DNA of 64,000 nt from Pseudomonadota bacterium (GTDB taxonomy: Bacteria > Pseudomonadota > Alphaproteobacteria > Geminicoccales > Geminicoccaceae), in NCBI GenBank assembly GCA_030549795.1, contig JAUQQO010000010.1, forward strand, positions 310,001-374,000, written 5' to 3'. Positions 30,496 through 64,000 of the stretch are shown one piece after another (the stretch's first letter is position 1; each line of letters opens with the position of its first letter). The notes below the pieces were generated by a model, which saw only the letters and a list, made by a program, of their open reading frames with translations, made no database searches and was not told where the DNA came from. Made by a program: the position numbers and the translations under genes.

Positions 30496-30871
30496 CGAAA
30501 CCCTCCGGAAAAGCCTGGGGACGAAGCCGGGGATCCGCCCTTTGGGCAACCGCAGCGCACGCCGTGCCCAGCGGATGCCCCTTATCCCCCGGGGTTTCTC
30601 CACCACCTCGCACCGCGCAGCCGACGCGCTGGGGTGGCGCCGGGATAACCCATCGTGGCAAAATTATCCCCATTATCCACCGCCGCGGCAAGTCGGCATG
30701 GAAGGAGGCTTTGCACGCCTTTCCAACCGTTGCTCCGCCCACTTGTCCGGCGTCGGCTGGCGTGCGAACGAAAGGTCGAAGAAAGCGGGGATGAACGGTG
30801 GGCTCTCGCCCCTTCCCACTTTTCCCCGTCCCATTCATCACCCCTCACTCTCTTAAAAAAAAGTCTCTTCG
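30496..30871. other. Candidate chromosomal replication origin (oriC) between PPSR and hemE
   Basis: A 376-base divergent intergenic region. It contains a cluster of DnaA-box-like 9-mers (described separately), a pyrimidine-rich strand (about 30800-30855) and an A-tract (30855-30862) just before hemE. Origins of Caulobacter and Rickettsia lie in the gap beside hemE and the PPSR-type gene. Genes on both sides read away from this point for several kilobases. Strand skew was not computed, and dnaA is not in the window. Confidence 0.6.
30582..30681. promoter_or_regulatory. Cluster of DnaA-box-like sites
   Basis: Four TTATCC-type sites lie within 100 bases: TTATCCCCC (30582-30590, plus), TTATCCCGG (30640-30648, minus strand), TTATCCCCA (30664-30672) and TTATCCACC (30673-30681), the last two directly abutting. 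Against the E. coli consensus TTATCCACA, the last two match eight of nine positions, the first seven and the second six. Confidence 0.55.
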
Positions 30872-31954
30872 ATGGCGAATGCGAGTGGAAGAAGCGCAGA
30901 GCAAGCGTCGAACAAGCCGCTTCTTGTAGTCTTGCGCGGTCAGAGAATCGATCCGCCGCCAATATGGTTGATGCGGCAGGCGGGACGTTATCTTCCAGAA
31001 TACCGGGCTGTACGAGCACGGGTGCGTGACTTTCTGGAACTTTGTTATGATCCCGACCTCGCGGTTGAGATCACTCTGCAGCCGCTGCGCCGCTTTCGCT
31101 TGGATGGTGCGATCCTTTTCTCGGACATCCTCGTGGTTCCCCACGCCCTCGGTGTCGCGGTCAGCTTCGTCGAGGGCGAGGGACCGCGCCTTGCACCCGT
31201 CGACGGACCACAGGCGCTCGCGAGGCTCGATCTCGCGCGCCTGCACGAGCGGCTCGAGCCGGTTTACGAAACGCTTCGACGTCTGCGCGCTGTGTTGCCA
31301 ACAGAAGTGACTCTGCTCGGTTTTTCCGGCATGCCGTGGACGCTCGCTGCCTATCTCGTGGAGGGCGGGGGCTCGAAGGAGTTCGTGCGGGCGCGGGCGC
31401 TCGCCCGCCGCGAACCGGCGTTCTTCGCGGCGCTTATCGCACTTCTTGAGGAAGCGGTGGTGGCCTATCTCGAGCGGCAGATCCAAGCCGGCGCGGAAGC
31501 CGTGCAGCTGTTCGACAGCTGGGCGGGTGTGCTGCCCGAACGCGAGCTCATTCGCTGGTGCATCGAACCGGCGCGGCGGATCGTTGCTCGCTTGCGCGCC
31601 GCTCATCCGCGGGTGCCGGTGATCCTGTTCCCGCGCGGGGTGGGGGCCAACCTCGTGCACTATTGTGCGCTCGGCGCCCATGCGCTCTCGCTGGATACGA
31701 GCGTTCCCATGCGCTGGGCGGCGGAAGTGCTCGGCGCGCGCACCCCGCTCGCCCTTCAGGGCAATCTCGATCCGGTAGCCTTGCTCGGCCCGAAGGAAGC
31801 TTTGATTTTCGAGGCGCGCGCCATCGTCGAGGCGGCAGGGACCAGGCCGCACGTGTTCAATCTCGGCCACGGTGTGTTGCCCGAAACGCCGCCTGAGCGC
31901 GTTGCGCAACTGATCGAGTCCTTGAAATCCGCGCGGGAACGGGCGATGTCATGA
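30872..31954 (+). CDS. hemE: Uroporphyrinogen decarboxylase
   Basis: A 360-residue cytosolic heme-pathway enzyme converting uroporphyrinogen III to coproporphyrinogen III. The signature WLMRQAGRYLPEYR (about 32-45) holds the substrate-binding Arg residues. FSDILVVP provides the conserved Asp, and GFSGMPWTLAAYLVEG and the late FNLGHGVLPETP with its His are also typical. ATG 30872 fits family alignments but has no Shine-Dalgarno sequence; an A-tract is upstream, so a short or leaderless transcript is possible. hemJ and rho follow on the same strand. Confidence 0.96.
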   Translation: MANASGRSAEQASNKPLLVVLRGQRIDPPPIWLMRQAGRYLPEYRAVRARVRDFLELCYDPDLAVEITLQPLRRFRLDGAILFSDILVVPHALGVAVSFVEGEGPRLAPVDGPQALARLDLARLHERLEPVYETLRRLRAVLPTEVTLLGFSGMPWTLAAYLVEGGGSKEFVRARALARREPAFFAALIALLEEAVVAYLERQIQAGAEAVQLFDSWAGVLPERELIRWCIEPARRIVARLRAAHPRVPVILFPRGVGANLVHYCALGAHALSLDTSVPMRWAAEVLGARTPLALQGNLDPVALLGPKEALIFEARAIVEAAGTRPHVFNLGHGVLPETPPERVAQLIESLKSARERAMS

Positions 31955-32072
31955 GTGTCGTGGCTGCGGCCGATCGGCCGGGTTGCGGGCACGCCTCGGC
32001 GATCCCGGCAGCTTTACCCTCTCTCGCCGATCGGGCGGGCGAGCGGTCGGCGGGTTCCGTGACAAGCAGAAG

Positions 32073-32504
32073 ATGACGAGCGGCCTGCTCTGGCTTAAGG
32101 CGCTGCACATCATGGCCTTCGCCGCCTGGATGGCGGGGATGTGGTACCTGCCGCGGCTTATGGTCTACCACAGCGAAGTCGGGGTCGGTTCGCCGGCATC
32201 TGAGCTCTTCAAGGTCATGGAACGTCGCCTCTTGAAGGCGATCACCACCCCCGCCATGCTCGTCACTGTGGCGTTGGGGGTCTGGCTCGCCACCGCCCAG
32301 GATCAATGGCGCGACGGTTGGCTGCACGCCAAGCTCGCGCTTGTCCTCGCGATGCTCGCGACCCACGGTCTGCTCGCGCGCCACGTCCGGGAGTTCGCCG
32401 CTGATCGGCGCGAACGGTCGGGGCGATACTTTCGGATCCTCAACGAGGTGCCGACGGTGTTGTTCATCGGGATCGTGCTCCTCGCCGTCTTGAAGCCGTT
32501 TTGA
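32073..32504 (+). CDS. hemJ: Protoporphyrinogen IX oxidase HemJ
   Basis: A 143-residue four-helix inner membrane protein of the HemJ family. It oxidises protoporphyrinogen IX in bacteria lacking HemG/HemY. The N-terminal [21 protein letters not shown] contains the conserved heme-ligand His and Trp. The second helix region [14 protein letters not shown] and the final [20 protein letters not shown] are diagnostic. ATG 32073 chosen from conservation; upstream in-frame sequence is not HemJ-like. Between hemE and rho, it is part of the conserved alphaproteobacterial origin-side cluster. Confidence 0.93.
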
Positions 32505-32545
32505 GGCCGGCTCGATGGGCGTGCCGGCAATCTGGGACGACGACC

Positions 32546-34297
32546 TTGGCCGATAGCGATCTGACCGAGGGCAAGTTGCCCTTTGCCGAGGACCCTGCTC
32601 CTGCCGGCGAGGCGCCGGCGCCGCGCCGGCGCCGCACGCGCGCCCGGGCGGAGCGGGCAGCCGAAGCGCAGCCGGGGCCGACCCCGGAGATGGGACATAT
32701 TCCGGCCTTCTTGCAGCCGCCTACGGAACGGCGAACGGAGGCCCCGGATGCTGCAGCGGCGCGCGAGCAACCGCGCGAGGCCGCGGCGGTCGCTGTGTCG
32801 GCGGAGACGCTTGCGCCCGCCACTCCTTCGCCGGAGCAGCCGCAGCGGGCGGCGGAGCCGGGGCGGGAAGCGCAACCGCAGCCGAGCGCGGAAGCGCAGC
32901 CGCGCGAGCGCCGCGAGGCTCGCTTGTCGCCACGGCCGCCCCTTAAGCCCGAAGCGCGGCCGCAGGCGCGGCTGCCGGAGCGCGTCGAGCCGCGGCCGAT
33001 CGAAGAGCCGCCGGAAGTACCGCCGCTTCCTCCCGAGGCGCCCGCGATCAACCTCACCGAGCTCAAGCGCAAATCAGCCACCGAACTCCTCAAATATGCC
33101 GAAGAGCTCGGCATCGAGGGCGCCAGCACCTTCAAAAAAGGCGATCTCGTCTTCGCCATTTTGAAGCAGCTCGCAGCATCGGAGATTCCGATCCGCGGCG
33201 AAGGGGTCCTCGAGATCCTGCAGGATGGCTTCGGGTTCTTGCGTTCGCCGGATGCCAATTACGTCGCCGGGCCGGATGACGTCTATGTTTCGCCCTCGCA
33301 GATCCGCCGCTTCGGCCTGCGGACCGGGGACACGGTCCAAGGTCTGGTGCGGGCGCCCAAGGAAGGCGAGCGCTATTTCGCGCTCGTGCGGGCGGATTTG
33401 ATCAATTTCGATCCGCCCGAGGTGGCGCGCCACCGCGTCCACTTCGACAATCTCACGCCCTATTACCCGACCCAGAAGCTCAACCTCGAAATCCCGGGGC
33501 AAAAAGACCTCTCGACCCGCGTGATCGAGATCGTCGCCCCGCTCGGCAAGGGTCAGCGTGCGCTCATCGTCGCCCAGCCGCGCACCGGTAAGACGATGCT
33601 CATGCAGAACATCGCGCACGCGATCATGCACAACCACAAGGAGGTGTTCCTCATCGTGCTGCTCATCGACGAGCGGCCGGAGGAGGTCACCGACATGCAG
33701 CGCACGGTTCGCGGCGAGGTCGTCTCCTCGACCTTCGACGAGCCGGCCACGCGGCACGTGCAGGTGGCCGAGATGGTGATCGAGAAGGCCAAGCGTCTGG
33801 TCGAGCACGGCCGGGACGTGGTGATCCTGCTCGATTCGATCACCCGGCTCGCGCGCGCCTACAACACGGTCGTGCCCTCTTCGGGCAAGGTGCTCACGGG
33901 TGGCGTCGACGCCAACGCGCTGCAGCGTCCCAAGCGCTTCTTCGGTGCGGCGCGCAACATCGAGGGCGGCGGCTCCTTGACCATCATCGCCACGGCGCTC
34001 ATCGACACCGGCTCGCGGATGGACGAGGTGATCTTCGAAGAATTCAAAGGCACCGGGAATGCCGAGATCGTGCTCGACCGTCGTGTTGCCGACAAACGCG
34101 TCTTCCCTGCCATCGACATTCAAAAGTCGGGCACGCGTAAAGAAGAGCTCCTCGTCGACAAGGCGACGCTTGCCCGCATGTGGGTGCTGCGGCGCATTCT
34201 CAACCCGATGGGTACGGTCGACGCCATCGAGTTCCTCCTCGACAAAATGAAGTACACCAAGACCAACGAGGAGTTCTGGGCGTCGATGAATCAGTGA
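32546..34297 (+). CDS. rho: Transcription termination factor Rho with long N-terminal extension
   Basis: Hexameric RNA-dependent ATPase ending transcription. The core begins about residue 168 ([20 protein letters not shown]): Rho N-domain, the RNA-binding cold-shock-like part ([20 protein letters not shown]), Walker A in [10 protein letters not shown]-loop region and the late [11 protein letters not shown]. About 167 residues precede it, rich in Ala, Pro, Arg and Glu and surely disordered. The start is uncertain: TTG 32501 overlaps the hemJ end, TTG 32546 follows a weak GGGAC, and ATG 32690 has CGGAG. I chose 32546, giving 583 residues against about 420 for E. coli Rho. Confidence 0.9.
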
Positions 34298-34381
34298 CGT
34301 CGCAACGCGGTCGCGACGCGACGGATCGTTACAGAACGAGGGCTGTCACGGCGCCGTGGGGCCTTTTATATTGAAGCGGTC
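34298..34381 (+). terminator. Possible terminator region after rho
   Basis: The 12-bp palindrome CACGGCGCCGTG is followed within a few bases by GGCCTTTTAT, ending about ten bases before the next gene. A GC-rich hairpin plus T4 could act as a weak intrinsic terminator of the hemE-hemJ-rho transcript. The short T-run makes this tentative. Confidence 0.35.
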
Positions 34382-35566
34382 GTGAAGCCGCGGAGGCCCG
34401 ACGTGTTGCGCTCGCTTGTCTCGATCTTCGTCGTTCTCCTCCTCGGTTCGGCCGCCGCCGGCGCCTATTGGCAGTATGTGGCGTTGCCGGCCCAGCAAAA
34501 GCAGCAGACTCCCGCCGCCGGGCGGGGGAACGCCCCGGTTCCGGTGGAAGCGATGCCGGTGAAGATCGCACCGGCCGAGATCTCGGTCGAAGCGGTGGGC
34601 AGCCTGCTCTCGAACGAGCGGGTGAGCGTGCGGCCCGAGGTGTCCGGGCGTATCGCCGCCTTCCATTTCGAGGAGGGCGGCAAAGTCACAGCCGGCCAGC
34701 TCTTGGTCGAGCTCGACGCTTCAGTGGAGCGCGCCACCCTCGCCGAAGCGCGAGCGCGGCTGTTCTTGGCGCAAACCAACCTCGAGCGGGCGCGCGAGCT
34801 GCGGCGCAGCAACGTCGGCACCCAGCGCGCCCTCGACGAAGCGGAGGCAGCGTTCCGCATCGCCGAGGCGGCGGTGGAGCTCGCCCAGGCGCAACTCGCC
34901 AAGCGGCAGATCCGGGCTCCCTTCGACGCCCGGGTGGGCCTCAGGCGCGCAAGCGTGGGCGAGTTCGTGACCGCTGGCACCGAGCTCACCACGCTCGAGC
35001 AGATCGACCCCATCAAGGTCGATTTCCGCGTCCCCGAACTCTTTCTCCCCGCCGTTCAGGTCGGCAACCCCATCCGCATCACGGTGGACGCTTTTCCCGA
35101 CCGCAGCTTCGAGGGCCGGGTGGTGGCGATCGATGCCGCCCTCGACGAGCGCGGCCGTTCGCTCGTCGTCCGCGCCGCCATCCCCAACCAGGACGAGCTT
35201 CTGCGCCCCGGGCTCTTCGCGCGCGTCCAACTCACCCTCGCGAGCAAGCCGGAGGCCTTGTGGATCGCGGAAGAGGCGCTCGTCCCTCAAGGCGGCGCGC
35301 AGTTCGTCTTTCGCTTGGTCGACCAGGGCCCGGGCGAGCCCAAGCGGGTCGAGCGCGTGCCGGTCTCGATCGGCATGCGGCGGCCGGGGGAGGTCGAGAT
35401 TACGGAGGGCTTGAAGCCGGGGGATCTCGTGGTGACGGCGGGGGTCATGCGGGTGCGCGATGGCGGGCTCGCGCTCGTCCGCCGACCCGGCGAGGCGCCG
35501 CGGCGCGGAGGCGAAGGCGGCGTTCCCACCGCCGGCCCGGCGGCGGCGCCGAGTGGTCGCGGTTGA
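34382..35566 (+). CDS. RND efflux periplasmic adaptor (membrane fusion protein)
   Basis: A 394-residue HlyD/AcrA-type adaptor that bridges an RND pump to a TolC channel. One N-terminal anchor helix (about 13-31) is followed by a Gln/Pro linker, a lipoyl half-motif (VRPEVSGRIAAFHFEEGGKVTAGQ), a coiled hairpin (about 110-165), the second lipoyl half (RAPFDARVGLRRASVGEFV) and a beta-barrel. The tail is a flexible Gly/Pro-rich stretch of about 30 residues. GTG 34382 starts it; the RND permease follows after 12 bases, so they form one operon. No TolC gene is adjacent. Confidence 0.93.
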   Translation: MKPRRPDVLRSLVSIFVVLLLGSAAAGAYWQYVALPAQQKQQTPAAGRGNAPVPVEAMPVKIAPAEISVEAVGSLLSNERVSVRPEVSGRIAAFHFEEGGKVTAGQLLVELDASVERATLAEARARLFLAQTNLERARELRRSNVGTQRALDEAEAAFRIAEAAVELAQAQLAKRQIRAPFDARVGLRRASVGEFVTAGTELTTLEQIDPIKVDFRVPELFLPAVQVGNPIRITVDAFPDRSFEGRVVAIDAALDERGRSLVVRAAIPNQDELLRPGLFARVQLTLASKPEALWIAEEALVPQGGAQFVFRLVDQGPGEPKRVERVPVSIGMRRPGEVEITEGLKPGDLVVTAGVMRVRDGGLALVRRPGEAPRRGGEGGVPTAGPAAAPSGRG

Positions 35567-35578
35567 GGGAGCGCGGCC

Positions 35579-38500
35579 GTGTTACTCTCTGACGTCTCCA
35601 TCCAGCGGCCGGTCTTCGCCTCGGTCTTGAGCCTGGTGATCCTGCTCGTAGGCCTTATGGCTTGGAGCCGGCTCTCGGTCCGCGAATATCCCAAGATCGA
35701 CGAGCCCGTGGTCTCGGTGCAGACCACCTACCGCGGTGCTTCCGCCGACATCATCGAGAGCCGGGTCACCCAGCCGCTCGAGGAAGTGCTCTCGGGTATC
35801 GAGGGGCTGGATGTGATGACCTCCTCCAGTCGGCCCGAGCGCAGCCAGATCACGCTGCGCTTTCGCGTCGACCGCGATCCCGAGGCAGCCGCCGCAGATG
35901 TGCGCGATCGCGTCGCGCAAGCGCGCGCCCGTCTTCCGGATGACGCCGATGAGCCGGTGATCCGCAAGGTCGAGGCCGATTCCCAGCCCATCATCTACAT
36001 CGCCCTCGCTTCCGACCGGCATGGTCCTATGGAAGTGAGCGAGATGGCGGATCGGTTGGTGAAGGATCGGCTGCAGAACCTGCCGGGGGTGGCGGAAGTG
36101 CGCATCTTCGGCGAGCGCCAGCCCTCCATGCGCATCTGGCTCGATCGCTTGCGCCTCGCCGGCTACGGCCTCACCCCGCAGGACGTCGAGGAGGCCCTGC
36201 GGCGGCAGAACATCGAGGTTCCAGCCGGTCGCATCGAGAGCCGCGGGCGCGAATTCGAGATCCTAGCTGAAACCGACCTTCGCACCGTCGAGCAGTTCAA
36301 CAATCTCATCATCCGCGAAGCCGACGGCTATTTGATTCGCCTCAGAGATGTCGGTGAGGCGCAGATTGCGCCGTTGAACGAGCGCGTGACCTCGCGCTTT
36401 AATGGCCGTCTTTCCACCTCCGTGGGTGTGGTGAAGCAGGCGACCGCCAACCCTCTCGAGGTCGCTGCTGCCGTCCGCGAGGCTCTGCCGCAGATCCGCG
36501 AGAATTTACCGGAAGGTGTCGTCGCAGAGATCGGCTACGACAGTACGATTTTCATCGAACGCGCCATCGCGAACGTTTATAGAGCGATCGTCGAGGCCAT
36601 TGTCCTGGTTGTACTGGTCATCTTCTTCTTCTTGCGCTCGCTGCGGGCGACGCTGGTTCCGCTGGTCACCATCCCGGTCTCGCTGATCGGCGCGTTCATT
36701 TTCATGTGGGCGTTTGGGTTCTCGATCAACACCCTTACGCTTCTCGCGATGGTGTTGGCGGTCGGCCTCGTCGTCGACGACGCCATCGTCATGCTCGAGA
36801 ACATCGCCCGGCACGTCGAGATGGGAAAGCGGCCGTTCCGCGCTGCGCTCGATGGCGCGCGCGAGATCGCCTTCGCGGTGGTGGCGATGACCATCACCTT
36901 GGCGGCGGTCTATGCGCCCATCGCCTTCCAGACCGGGCGCACCGGCCGTCTGTTCGTCGAGTTCGCGCTCACCCTCGCAGCCGCTGTCCTGGTTTCGGGC
37001 TTCGTGGCCCTTACCCTCTCGCCCATGATGTGCTCACTTCTCTTAAAACAGGAGGAGCGCCACAATTTCCTTTATCGTGCGATTGAAAGCCTGTTCGTCG
37101 GCCTTACGCGTGCTTATCGCGCGAGCCTCGCTTTCGCGCTTTCGATTCGCCCGGCGATCGTCGTCTTGATGCTGTTGGTTGCCGGTTTTGCCGCTTTGAT
37201 CTTCCGGCAACTCCCGGCTGAACTGGCGCCGGTGGAAGACCGCGGCACAGTCGTGACGATCGGGATCGCGCCCGAGGGCAGCACGCTCGCCTACACCGAC
37301 CGCTACGCGCGCATGATCGAACAGGCCTATCGTGAGCAACCGCTCTTCGACCGCATCTTCGTCGTCATCGGCTTTGGCAACGATGTGGCGCGGGTGATTG
37401 CCTTTGGACGGCTCGTCGATTGGGACGCGCGGACGGTCAAACAGCAGGACGTTACGCGCGAGCTCGCGCCCAAGATGTTCCAGATCCCGGGTCTGCTCGC
37501 CTTCCCGAGCAATCCTCCCTCCCTCGGTCAGAGCCCGGTGAGCAAGCCCGTGCAGTATGTGCTGCAGACCTCGCAGCCCTATTCGGTGCTCGAGCGCGCG
37601 GTCGAACAGCTGATGGCCGCTGCGCGCCGCAATCCCGGTCTTCTCAACCTCGATACCGACCTCAAGCTCAACAAGCCGCAGATCACAGTCGAGATCGACC
37701 GCGAGAAGGCGGCACTTATGGGGATCGATGTGCGCACCATCGGCCAGACGGTCGAAACCATGCTCGGTGGGCGCCAGGTCACCCGCTTCAAGCGCGACGG
37801 CAAACAATATGAAGTGGTGGTGCAGGTCAAGCCAGAGGACCGCGCCACGCCCAACGATCTCTCACAGATCTACGTGCGCGGGGCAGGCGGGGTGATGGTG
37901 CCGCTTTCCAACCTCGTGACCATCCAAGAAAGAGTGGCGCCGAAAGAGCTCAACCACTTCAACAAACTGCGCTCGGCGACCATCACGGCGACGCTCGCCC
38001 CCGGCTATTCGCTCGGCGAAGCTTTGGCGTTTTTGGACGCCGAAGCGGCCAAGCTCGATCCTGCGATCGTCACCGACCTCGACGGTCAAAGCCGCGAGTT
38101 CCGCCAGTCGGCGACCGGTCTTTGGATCGTCTTCTTGCTCGCCCTCGTCTTCATCTATCTCGTGCTCGCGGCGCAGTTCGAGAGCTGGGTCGATCCCTTC
38201 GTGATCATGCTCACCGTACCGCTCTCGATGACCGGCGCGCTGCTGGCCCTTCAGCTCACCGGCCAGAGCCTTAACGTCTACAGCCAGATCGGGCTGGTCA
38301 CGCTGGTCGGCCTCATCACCAAGCACGGCATCCTGATCGTCGAGTTCGCCAACCAGCTGCGCGCGCGCGGCCGCAGCATCCATGATGCGGTCCTCGAGGC
38401 GGCGGTACTGCGCCTGCGGCCGATCCTCATGACCACCGGTGCGATGGTCTTGGGTTCGATCCCGCTTGCGTTCGCTACCGGCGCTGGGGCCGAGGGCCGG

Positions 38501-38692
38501 CAGGCGATCGGCTGGGTGATCGTAGGCGGCCTCTCGCTCGGTACTCTCTTCACCCTCTATGTGGTGCCGGTCGCCTACACGCTGTTCACCCGGCGGACGC
38601 TGCCGCGCTGGGTGCGCGAGCAGGCCGAGCGCGAGCGTCGCGAAGCCGAGCGCGCAGCCGCTGCGGGTGCGCAGCCGGTTCCCGCCGAATAG
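35579..38692 (+). CDS. RND-family efflux permease (AcrB/MexB-like, HAE1 group)
   Basis: A 1037-residue inner membrane proton/drug antiporter. Twelve hydrophobic segments are split by two large periplasmic loops. The proton-relay acidic pair is in GLVVDDAIVMLEN (TM4) and the TM10 lysine is in TKHGILIVEFANQL, as in AcrB. The N-terminal SIQRPVFASVLSLVI and RGASADIIESRVTQPLE are characteristic. GTG 35579 has GGGAG about eight bases upstream. Substrate range cannot be predicted. It is convergent with the phosphoesterase gene, with only three bases between stops. Confidence 0.95.
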   Translation: MLLSDVSIQRPVFASVLSLVILLVGLMAWSRLSVREYPKIDEPVVSVQTTYRGASADIIESRVTQPLEEVLSGIEGLDVMTSSSRPERSQITLRFRVDRDPEAAAADVRDRVAQARARLPDDADEPVIRKVEADSQPIIYIALASDRHGPMEVSEMADRLVKDRLQNLPGVAEVRIFGERQPSMRIWLDRLRLAGYGLTPQDVEEALRRQNIEVPAGRIESRGREFEILAETDLRTVEQFNNLIIREADGYLIRLRDVGEAQIAPLNERVTSRFNGRLSTSVGVVKQATANPLEVAAAVREALPQIRENLPEGVVAEIGYDSTIFIERAIANVYRAIVEAIVLVVLVIFFFLRSLRATLVPLVTIPVSLIGAFIFMWAFGFSINTLTLLAMVLAVGLVVDDAIVMLENIARHVEMGKRPFRAALDGAREIAFAVVAMTITLAAVYAPIAFQTGRTGRLFVEFALTLAAAVLVSGFVALTLSPMMCSLLLKQEERHNFLYRAIESLFVGLTRAYRASLAFALSIRPAIVVLMLLVAGFAALIFRQLPAELAPVEDRGTVVTIGIAPEGSTLAYTDRYARMIEQAYREQPLFDRIFVVIGFGNDVARVIAFGRLVDWDARTVKQQDVTRELAPKMFQIPGLLAFPSNPPSLGQSPVSKPVQYVLQTSQPYSVLERAVEQLMAAARRNPGLLNLDTDLKLNKPQITVEIDREKAALMGIDVRTIGQTVETMLGGRQVTRFKRDGKQYEVVVQVKPEDRATPNDLSQIYVRGAGGVMVPLSNLVTIQERVAPKELNHFNKLRSATITATLAPGYSLGEALAFLDAEAAKLDPAIVTDLDGQSREFRQSATGLWIVFLLALVFIYLVLAAQFESWVDPFVIMLTVPLSMTGALLALQLTGQSLNVYSQIGLVTLVGLITKHGILIVEFANQLRARGRSIHDAVLEAAVLRLRPILMTTGAMVLGSIPLAFATGAGAEGRQAIGWVIVGGLSLGTLFTLYVVPVAYTLFTRRTLPRWVREQAERERREAERAAAAGAQPVPAE

Positions 38693-52849: not shown

Positions 52850-54691
52850 TCACGCTGCTGCTCGTTGACGCTCGCTTTCCCGCTCGAGCCCGGCTGTGAG
52901 CCGCTTCAACGCCGCCTCGTCCAGGGTTTCGGCCTGCAGGAGCTCTTGAGCGCAACGCTCGAGGATCTCACGGTTGCGCGAGAGAATCGAAAGCGCGCGC
53001 TCGAATTGCTGATCGACGATCCTGCGCACCGCGAGATCGATCTCGCGCGCCGTATCTTCACTGTAAATGCGCTCGAAAGTGAACTGCCCGGGAGCCGGCT
53101 GCAGGAACGGGCTGCGCTCGACATCGTAAGCGATCGAGCCCAACCGCTCGTCCATGCCGTAACGCGCGACGATGGCGCGCGCGATGTCGGTAGCGCGCAC
53201 GAGATCATCCGCTGCACCAGTGGAGAGATGGTCGAACACCAATTTTTCCGCGGCGCGCCCACCCAAGATCACGCAGATCTTATTGAGTAGTTCTTCTTTA
53301 GTCATAAGGAAGCGATCTTCGGTGGGCCGCTGGATCGTGTAACCGAGAGCTCCTACCCCCCGCGGCACGATCGAGACCTTGTGCACGACATCGGTGCCGG
53401 GAAGGGCGAGGGCGACGAGCGCATGGCCCATCTCGTGATAGGCGACGATCTCGCGTTCGCGCGGATTGAGCACGCGGTTGCGCTTTTCGAGGCCGGCAAC
53501 AATACGCTCGATGGCTTGCGTGAAGTCCTCCATCGTCACCGCCTCGGCCCGCCGCCGGGTGGCGAGAAGCGCCGCTTCGTTGACGAGGTTGGCAAGATCC
53601 GCACCCGAAAAGCCGGTGGTCATCGCCGCGATCTTTTCGATGTCCACATCAGGCGCCAAGAGTACTTTCTTGATGTGGACTTTGAGGATCTGGATCCGGC
53701 CGTTCTTGTCCGGCCGGTCAACCAAGACCTGTCGGTCGAAGCGACCGGCGCGCAGAAGAGCCGGATCAAGGATCTCGGGTCGGTTGGTGGCCCCCAACAG
53801 CACCACCCCTTCGGACGGATCGAAGCCGTCGAGCTCGGCCAAGAGTTGGTTCAAGGTCTGCTCGCGCTCGTCGTGCCCGCCGATGCCGGTGAGCGTGCTG
53901 CGCGCGCGGCCGAGCGCGTCGAGCTCGTCGATGAAGATGATGGCCGGTGCCGCCTTGCGCGCCTGCTCGAAGAGATCGCGCACGCGCGCTGCGCCCACGC
54001 CCACGAACATCTCGACGAATTCGGAGCCCGAAATCGAGAAGAAGGGCACACCCGCTTCGCCGGCAACCGCGCGCGCGAGCAGAGTCTTACCGGTACCCGG
54101 AGGTCCCACGAGCAAAATACCCTTGGGAATGCGCGCGCCGAGCCGGCCATATTCTTTGGGATTTTTGAGAAACTCGACGATTTCTTTGAGTTCGGCTTTA
54201 GCCTCGTCGACCCCGGCGACGTCGTCGAAGGTCACTTTGGTGTCTTTTTCAACATAGACCTTGGCCTTGGAGCGGCCGACCGACATGAGGCCGCCGATCC
54301 CCTGCCGCTCGGCGAAACGGCGGAAGATGAAGGCCCAAATCGCGAAAAAGACGAGGACCGGAACAACCCAAGACAAAATATCGCGTAAAAACGTGCTCTC
54401 CACGACGCCAGTGAACTGTACTCCGCGTTTGGCGAGATCGTTGGCGATGGCGGGATCGACACGAGGAGTGACGAACTGCGTCTTTCCTGCCTGCGGTTCT
54501 TTGAAAAAGCCGGTGATGTACTGCTCACCGACGGCGATCCGGTCGACGAGGCCCTTGTCGAGATATTCGAGGAACTCGGAATAAGGGATGACTTCGGTGG
54601 TGCGCATCTCCCGCCACCAGCCCTGGAAGAGCAGGAGGAGGAGGGCCGCCGCCACCACGTACCACAGGTTCAGCTGTTGCTTTTTGTCCAC
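52850..54691 (-). CDS. ftsH: ATP-dependent zinc metalloprotease FtsH
   Basis: A 613-residue membrane-anchored AAA protease. TM1 is about 10-24 and TM2 about 104-123 flank a short periplasmic domain. Walker A is GPPGTGKT at 196-203, Walker [12 protein letters not shown], the second-region-of-homology arginine fingers are in [17 protein letters not shown], and the zinc site HEMGH has His419, Glu420 and His423. The periplasmic part and N-terminus differ from the usual single alphaproteobacterial FtsH next to tilS, so this could be a paralogue. GTG 54691 follows GGAG. It is convergent with the YfhO-like gene. Confidence 0.95.
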
Positions 54692-63200: not shown

Positions 63201-64000
63201 ACGACCGTTTCCGCTACCACGGGGCGCCCGTCGAGGTCGAACAGACGCGCGCGCAAAAGGGCCTCGAGGGGGCGTGTGGTCTTGGGAATGTCATCGAACG
63301 TGAGGGCGAGTTCGGCGCGCCCTTCGGCATCGGTGGTGAAAGCCGAGATCGGAAGGGCCTGCGGCAGCGGCTCGTCGCCGACGAGGCCGAAACCGAAACC
63401 AGGGCTATCGGGGAAGGGCACCTGCGCCGGGCGGATGAGAACCTCGAGCTCACCCGCGAGTTCTGCTGCCGGAGCACCGAAAAGATAGCGACCTTCGAGG
63501 CGAACCGTGGTCGCGAAAGCGGGATCGATACGGGTCTCGGTCGTTTCGAGCGCGAGCTCGAGCCGGGGCGGTACAAAGTCCTCGACCACGAACTGGGTCA
63601 CCCCGATCGCCGGAGCGTCCACCCCGGCGTGCGCGCTGAGCGTCCACACCCCGCTTACCGCTTCGCTTCCGAGCGGGAAGCTCAGCACCCCTCCTCCACT
63701 GGGATCGGCAGGGAGGAGAAAGCGGTTCGCTTCGAGGCCGTCGGGGCGGTGCAGTCGGATCGTAAGGGGCAGATCGGGAACCGCCCGCGCCTCGCGATCG
63801 CGCACGAGCACCCCGAGGTACACGGTCTCGCCGGCGCGGTAGACACCGCGTTCGGTCCACAAAAAGGCATCGAGCGGGCCGGGCGGGGTGCGTCCTTCGA
63901 CCCCGAGCTCGACCAGATCGAGCGGGGGTTCATCGAGGCGCAAGAGCGCGAGATCCCCCTCCCCGCGCTGCGCGAGGATGAGGAGGGGGGCAAGGCCGCC
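60221..64000 (-). CDS. Bacterial alpha-2-macroglobulin (YfhM-like), 5' end outside the window
   Basis: The C-terminal 1259 or so residues of a large periplasmic protease-trapping protein; the frame is open to the window edge, so signal peptide and lipobox are not seen. MG domains (TERGVYRAGETVYLGVLVRD is a typical MG3/4 segment), a bait-region-like stretch and the thioester motif CAEQ in DYPYGCAEQVVSR (about 61535-61546) are present; CxEQ is the thioester form that covalently couples attacking proteases. The thioester helical domain and a final MG10-like domain follow. It is coupled to pbpC, the usual partner, suggesting defence of the cell wall when outer membrane is breached. Confidence 0.93.
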   Translation of the reverse strand, partial: GGLAPLLILAQRGEGDLALLRLDEPPLDLVELGVEGRTPPGPLDAFLWTERGVYRAGETVYLGVLVRDREARAVPDLPLTIRLHRPDGLEANRFLLPADPSGGGVLSFPLGSEAVSGVWTLSAHAGVDAPAIGVTQFVVEDFVPPRLELALETTETRIDPAFATTVRLEGRYLFGAPAAELAGELEVLIRPAQVPFPDSPGFGFGLVGDEPLPQALPISAFTTDAEGRAELALTFDDIPKTTRPLEALLRARLFDLDGRPVVAETVVPMRTGARWIGLRAAFAGALAEGSAPLFELLLLDSDGRPQGPATLAFDLFAEEWDYVWFQRGGRWEWEEVVHDRVIGSGTVAIAADGRGRLELPTLAFGRYRIEVFDPNGEAASSLRFFVGWHIEAQASQRPDRLPLEVRPAERPGQFWVRIEPAFAARVALFLVDHAVRAVHELEVPKGGGEMRLEVGPIGPGGAHLLAVAVSASGAVLPRLPVRAVGVAWLPGALAERRLDLVLETASVVAPSTTLEVVVRLPGDRDEPSRVVLALVDDAILALTRYTAPDPVAHYLGKRALGVELRDLYGRLIDPEGEIGRVQSGGDRGIARAHLDATLKERKSFALMTAPLAPDAEGVVRARFPLPDFAGRVRLMAVAWTPLRVGAAQTTVLLRPPVVAELGLPRFLAPGDRAQIRLELPPMAERPAGTYRLRLVGEGPIALEPSEITFPDLPPERRGSASLELAAGPTPGEATVRLLLEGPSGIRLARSFALAVRAPRPQVTRRALHLLEPGEGLSLTAEAARGLVPQTVRMELALSPTPALDVSGLLAQLEDYPYGCAEQVVSRALAALAAERLGMSSPRMAEMVQHALGRLASLETATGGFASWHAFAPSELWLTAYAQDFLLEAKAAGVPVPEGMLARTRAFLRARLAAIGDGPSERAAGAYAAWVLARDGTLDPSRLRWFALRSEPDLPTDAARVHLAAALTQLGERTLAARIAAGLGHGRRLRANERLDDFGSPLRDEALVLAVAAHAQLVPPEQLFARAEQLARRLAASSYLSTQEQAWLVRAAAALRSQHPVLATVDGHRLSASGTVVHRLHTPAWPVLLRNEGAGRLWASVSITGVPAAPAPAESRGFRLLRSVFTPEGGVADLTRLRQNQQLLVVVEGQAEEPGFRRTLLVVPLAAGLELEPVHLTGASSPERFAWLGALDTPAYLGLRDDRFIAALELERTNPTFRIAFLVRAVTAGTFELPSAQVEDMYDPARFARTTAARIVIAPR

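Follow-up and report, generated by a model that had tools for sequence, protein, structure and literature searches.

Does chromosome replication in this Geminicoccaceae bacterium start from an origin (oriC) in the 376-bp gap between the divergent genes PPSR and hemE (30496..30871, no strand assigned), as a sequence-only reading had proposed? The window, meaning the whole 64-kb stretch of DNA that was analysed, corresponds to C46:310001-374000 of a draft genome of 3,164,142 bases in 57 contigs. Its PPSR shares 95% identity with the PPSR of L002, a Geminicoccaceae MAG, and 83% with the one in the complete Geminicoccaceae genome AP024683. PPSR (Kinase-PPPase, PF03618; 29620..30495, minus strand) is the left neighbour of the gap and belongs to a family that we take to be the same as COG1806/DUF299, RP001 and CC0001. 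Leftward genes run from 30495 to 27279 (~3.2 kb; PPSR, a 245-aa ORF and a TolC-type gene), and beyond them lies a rightward amidohydrolase. On the right, hemE (URO-D; 30872..31954) is followed, likewise on the plus strand, by a UPF0093 gene that is presumably hemJ (31983..32504), by rho (32501..34297) and by the MFP (HlyD_D23) and RND (ACR_tran) genes of a pump (34382..38692), so that the rightward run extends from 30872 to 38692. The genes do diverge from the gap on both sides, as had been read. We consider it very probable that the gap is the oriC of this organism. The proposal is supported by the position of the gap, its conservation, its enrichment in box cores, its AT-rich end and, one conflicting raw-skew result apart, the strand polarity in relatives; from these we infer DnaA binding to the boxes, opening at the AT-rich end and firing of the origin in this very strain.

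Four TTATCC hexamers lie in the gap, at 30582 (plus), 30643 (minus), 30664 (plus) and 30673 (plus). They span 97 bases (30582-30678), in agreement with the claim of four such sites within 100 bases. Equally correct was the description of two tandem 9-mers at 30664-30681, TTATCCCCA (30664..30672, plus) and TTATCCACC (30673..30681, plus), each one mismatch from the DnaA consensus TTATCCACA. The remaining two sites are TTATCCCCC (30582..30590, plus), with two mismatches, and TTATCCCGG (30640..30648, minus), in which just the core TTATCC is found. Further box cores on the minus strand are GATCCCC (30529..30535) and CATCCCC (30787..30793), the latter towards the AT-rich end of the gap. No perfect TTATCCACA occurs in the window, and the 3.16-Mb genome holds one (C19:3661) against 12 for the reversed control. 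The window contains 12 TTATCC, 4 of them in the gap. The search was extended to the window plus 12 further stretches of its contig, 292,712 bases in total. These contain 31 TTATCC, and outside the gap cluster no two of them lie within 100 bp of each other. Moreover, none of 200 dinucleotide shuffles of the window had even three TTATCC in 100 bp. The cluster, with its four hexamers, its two 9-mers at one mismatch and no perfect box, is therefore unusual for the genome. The tandem pair alone is not rare, because TTATCC-N0-30-TTATCC occurs three times in the whole genome and three times in the reversed control. Domain IV of the DnaA protein of this genome reads GGRDHTTVMHA, which we take to be the usual signature, and usual box recognition is therefore expected. 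Two Rfam matches fell below their gathering scores (27.8 of 90 bits and 13.9 of 42 bits) and were taken as chance.

The gap lies between hemE and COG1806/PPSR, the position of a hemE-type origin, and this arrangement is kept across the family. PPSR was detected in 30 of the 31 family genomes searched, and in all 30 a divergent hemE lies 334-470 bp away, these lengths resting on gene starts extrapolated from tblastn. Among related loci from named records the gap is present in 30/34 and absent in L030, L032, L033 and L034. An alignment of 14 gaps shows that the six sequences of the genus (the window, L002-L005 and L019) have in common GATTATCCYCRNNATCC, the first G of which is replaced by A in the window, a CCAC, CTTGTCC-N13-GTGCVAAC (30742..30769, plus strand in the window; equal spacing in 6/6) and little else. 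The TTATCC cluster, whose absence from close relatives was to count against the proposal, is retained in part. One of the four hexamers, that at 30664, is kept as such in 6/6 genus sequences, whereas those at 30582 and 30643 are lost in the five aligned relatives and that at 30673 persists in the six only as NATCC. The conserved block ATTATCCYCRNNATCC (30663..30678, plus) has eight matches in the 31 genomes, seven in the PPSR-hemE gap and the other on G031:C222, with none for the reversed control. Each of the six genus genomes has one copy and G026 another, and each of these seven copies sits upstream of the PPSR match at a distance of 166-170 bp. The presence of the block in the genus genomes is no test, as those six define the pattern; the test is its single copy per genome.

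The wider family retains the same kind of site. We assembled 31 family gaps (the window, 23 named loci, L002-L023 and L035, and seven further genomes with non-duplicate gaps), and seven others (L024-L029 and L031), considered not to belong to the family, were excluded. Compared with 100 shuffles, these gaps contain 27 TTATCC (mean 2.7, largest 8), 103 ATCC[AC]C (mean 22.0, largest 37), 43 TGTGGA (mean 4.4, largest 12) and 50 TCCCCA (mean 12.4, largest 21). In the window and the 23 named loci, the densities of these four cores in the gap are 44, 10, 12 and 18 times those in the other 391 kb, which is mostly coding. In 19 of these 24 loci the 400-bp stretch richest in ATCC[AC]C overlaps the gap, and in L005, L007, L008, L013 and L014 it lies outside; in L002, L016 and L035 another stretch ties with the gap. 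GANTC showed no excess in the family gaps (96 against a shuffle mean of 120.6). The 50-mer of lowest GC in the window's gap (30820..30869, no strand assigned; GC 0.42 against 0.63 for the whole gap) supplies the AT-rich stretch of a hemE-type origin and is a candidate unwinding element. In 24/31 family gaps the corresponding 50-mer ends 60 bp or less from hemE, where 5.7 would be expected. DnaA-trio-like triplets by the AT-rich end were dropped as too weak, both CTAC[AT] (15 against 7.7 in shuffles, largest 14) and CTACNAC (6 against 1.6, largest 6).

Strand polarity was read from GC skew and from the KOPS motif GGGNAGGG; results at the scale of chromosome arms come from the genomes of relatives, the present genome being a draft of which one contig was sampled. 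For AP024683 we fitted the best circular two-arm split to 40 sampled stretches of 20 kb. The first stretch of the split is 564001-584000, within which the gap falls (576 kb), and the split stops short of the stretch at 2.35 Mb; the point opposite the gap is 2.46 Mb. An equally strong split arose in 11 of 1000 permutations, and 327/500 bootstraps start at the gap stretch. By the test that the sequence-only reading had named, the skew minimum should fall at the gap itself. The start of the AP024683 split agrees with this, but the fine minima do not fall exactly there, that of AP024683 lying at 553.9 kb (22 kb off) in an almost level trough (538-578 kb) and that of the window at 38.4 kb, 8 kb from the gap at 30.7 kb, in a trough of 28-38 kb.

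GGGNAGGG, which was fixed beforehand and which served the same purpose in Azorhizobium (PMC2443382), is the sole KOPS variant tested formally; GGGCAG, GGCAGG and GGGCAGG were set aside as not clean. We sampled 48, 40 and 40 stretches in AP024683, G027 and G006, respectively, taking the largest contig as a circle in the latter two. Concordant sites numbered 121/171 in AP024683 (5/500 permutations as good; plus arm from 0.752 Mb, gap at 0.576), 105/136 in G027 (0/500; plus arm from 3.700 Mb, gap at 3.865) and 136/168 in G006 (0/500; plus arm from 1.350 Mb, gap at 1.506). The switch in KOPS polarity lies ~155-180 kb or less from the gap in the three genomes, at a resolution of only 150-200 kb, and 94 of 300 AP024683 bootstraps start near 3.2-3.5 Mb instead. 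The window has six KOPS up to position 30810, all of them minus-strand; of the later ones, those at 53399 and 63411 are plus-strand and that at 63957 is minus-strand. Raw GC skew over 20 stretches gave no clear switch by eye in G027 or G006. With 40 stretches, the plus arm of G006 starts at 1.65 Mb (gap at 1.506), a weak result (8/60 permutations as strong), and that of G027 runs from 4.60 to 0.85 Mb (gap at 3.865; 0/60 permutations as strong). This G027 switch falls 0.7 Mb away from the gap and conflicts with KOPS in the same genome, the two switch points being ~0.9 Mb apart; rearrangement or local composition are our guesses as to the cause. A polarity switch at the gap is thus seen in relatives to within 20-200 kb (AP024683 skew, KOPS in three genomes), although raw skew agrees only weakly in G006 and points elsewhere in G027.

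Could the conserved sites be no more than the promoters of two divergent genes, with the origin elsewhere? GGATAAT on the minus strand would then be the PPSR -10 box and CTTGTCC-N13-GTGCVAAC the possible hemE promoter, a role that its retention in 6/6 genus sequences fits. Furthermore, the gap has one sigma-70-like site on the minus strand, TTGCCG-17-GATAAT (30691-30663; shuffle mean 0.0, sd 0.2), the -10 of which falls within the conserved tandem block. Promoters, however, would not account for the AT-rich end, the skew and KOPS polarity or the enrichment of gaps across the family in TGTGGA, TCCCCA and ATCC[AC]C cores. The two roles are also compatible; the Caulobacter origin itself contains a hemE promoter. 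We regard promoters alone as a very improbable account. The tandem block can also be read as the PPSR -10 (GATAAT, with TTGCCG at 17 bp; 30663-30691), and DnaA might therefore control PPSR.

An origin further along the hemE-side arm, either near the skew minimum (~38 kb in the window) or at the parABS-mnmEG module ~80 kb off, is more improbable still. In its favour, the raw-skew minima of the window and AP024683 are both displaced to the hemE side, and parS sites are usually near the origin, as described in PMC5815017. Yet cumulative skew in AP024683 still drops strongly between parS (~500 kb) and 554 kb, so that parS is not the switch point; the trough at 538-578 kb is almost level, and the rest of the window has no box cluster like that of the gap. 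Least credible, and in our view very nearly negligible, is an origin by dnaA (rpsT-dnaA-dnaN on contig C37, where rpsT and dnaN were recognised by eye in translation). Origins adjoining dnaA are usual in Gammaproteobacteria according to PMC1914354, but the dnaA loci of this genome and of AP024683 (3,483 bases each) contain no TTATCC, and single-mismatch boxes number one in the former and none in the latter. Nor does the skew switch beside dnaA, the place that had been named as a refutation: in AP024683 dnaA is at 3.687 Mb, ~650 kb from the gap and the split.

If the gap is the origin, DnaA would bind its variant boxes, the conserved tandem pair at 30664-30681 first, and would then spread from this pair to the weaker cores. 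The AT-rich stretch by hemE (~30820-30869) would open and the helicase would load there, and two forks would depart, one past PPSR and the other past hemE-rho.

The gap is a further example of the known hemE-COG1806 type of origin. The hemE neighbourhood had been named as the address of the Caulobacter and Rickettsia origins, and PMC1914354 does give hemE and COG1806/DUF299 as the flanks, COG1806 being CC0001 in Caulobacter. The origins of Caulobacter crescentus (Cori) and Rickettsia prowazekii, as described there, share with the present gap the flanking genes, a similar length, DnaA boxes and an AT-rich stretch (PMC1914354). The boxes here, in contrast, are mainly variants of TTATCC/NATCCMC. 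Unlike in Cori, we found no exact IHF or CtrA consensus. CtrA sites of the form TTAA-N7-TTAA are absent from the gap at up to one mismatch, so that it lacks the Caulobacter-type CtrA sites, and the exact form is absent from all 31 family gaps. The exact IHF consensus, WATCAANNNNTTR, is absent from the window, where only 0.26 would be expected by chance, and real sites may deviate from it. In Wolbachia, Ehrlichia and Anaplasma the origin (hemE-COG1253) also has hemE on one side, but after rearrangement COG1806 is not its partner as it is here (PMC1914354). The predicted origin of Azorhizobium caulinodans was placed by a GC-skew shift, a typical alphaproteobacterial gene cluster and GGGNAGGG polarity, three lines also used here (PMC2443382). 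The order is different there and one genome was concerned, whereas here three genomes were sampled and the gap is kept in 30. At the level of search listings of the open-licence literature, we found no paper devoted to a Geminicoccaceae oriC. With the origin fixed, Geminicoccaceae genomes can be oriented and growth rate can be read from read depth.

The notable part of this locus is its displaced centromere. The RND pump after rho had been called unusual, in place of the mnmE-mnmG-parAB run. The pump is present and the module is indeed elsewhere, but MFP-RND genes also follow rho in 5/23 related loci with rho (L002-L005 and L010). In 8/23 (L006, L008, L013, L014, L024, L027, L028 and L030) mnmE lies on the same strand within ~4 kb after rho, and mnmG-rsmG-parA come next after mnmE in L027, L028 and L030. 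L007 has only an antiporter gene after rho, and nine of the 23 loci have none of these genes within the DNA examined. In the present genome the module is at C46:417.8-426.2 kb (L094), 77-86 kb from the origin, and comprises mnmE, an antiporter-like gene, mnmG, rsmG, a ParA-like gene and parB; mnmE, mnmG, rsmG and the ParB model passed curated cut-offs and the ParA-like and antiporter-like genes failed them. All but the antiporter gene are on the strand opposite to rho and read towards the origin, with parB nearest to it. Two parS sites lie at 420.06 and 424.63 kb of C46, 79-84 kb from the gap, against ~8 kb in Caulobacter (PMC5815017). The window itself has just one parS-like site, with three mismatches.

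PPSR-parS distances could be measured in the 12 of 31 genomes that have both on one contig. On the hemE side they are 74-85 kb in three of the genus (G000, G023 and G024, the coordinates of G024 matching those of AP024683, in which parS is 74-79 kb from the gap), 127-129 kb in G027, 16-21 kb in G006 and 7-12 kb in G002, G004, G018, G019 and G031; G004 carries one more parS, its third, which is on the PPSR side. In G010 and G011 they are 23-31 kb and parS is on the PPSR side of the origin; the family may therefore have seen more than one move of the module. The centromere-like sites here, ~80 kb from the origin, are further away than in most measurable relatives, probably after an inversion. 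The order and strand of the module are those that an inversion starting after rho would leave, which would explain the pump after rho. The module, which in some of the relatives comes after rho, would thereby have moved ~80 kb along the hemE-side arm, and the replication polarity would have stayed with hemE. We favour, with moderate confidence, an inversion with one end after rho that took mnmE-mnmG-rsmG-parA-parB and both parS from ~7-12 to 74-85 kb from oriC and persisted through the divergence of the genus as a natural uncoupling of centromere and origin. Distances of 74-129 kb are still inside the ~500-kb region of Caulobacter that is described as permissive for extra parS (PMC5815017). 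Such displaced parABS loci offer natural cases for finding out which of the two, parS or oriC, takes the lead in segregation.

Lastly, another tandem TTATCC pair was observed in this genome at G000:C54:9583-9608 and L099, ~1.6 and 2.8 kb from ParA-like (AAA_31) and ParB/SopB-like genes, and is perhaps a plasmid origin or its remnant.
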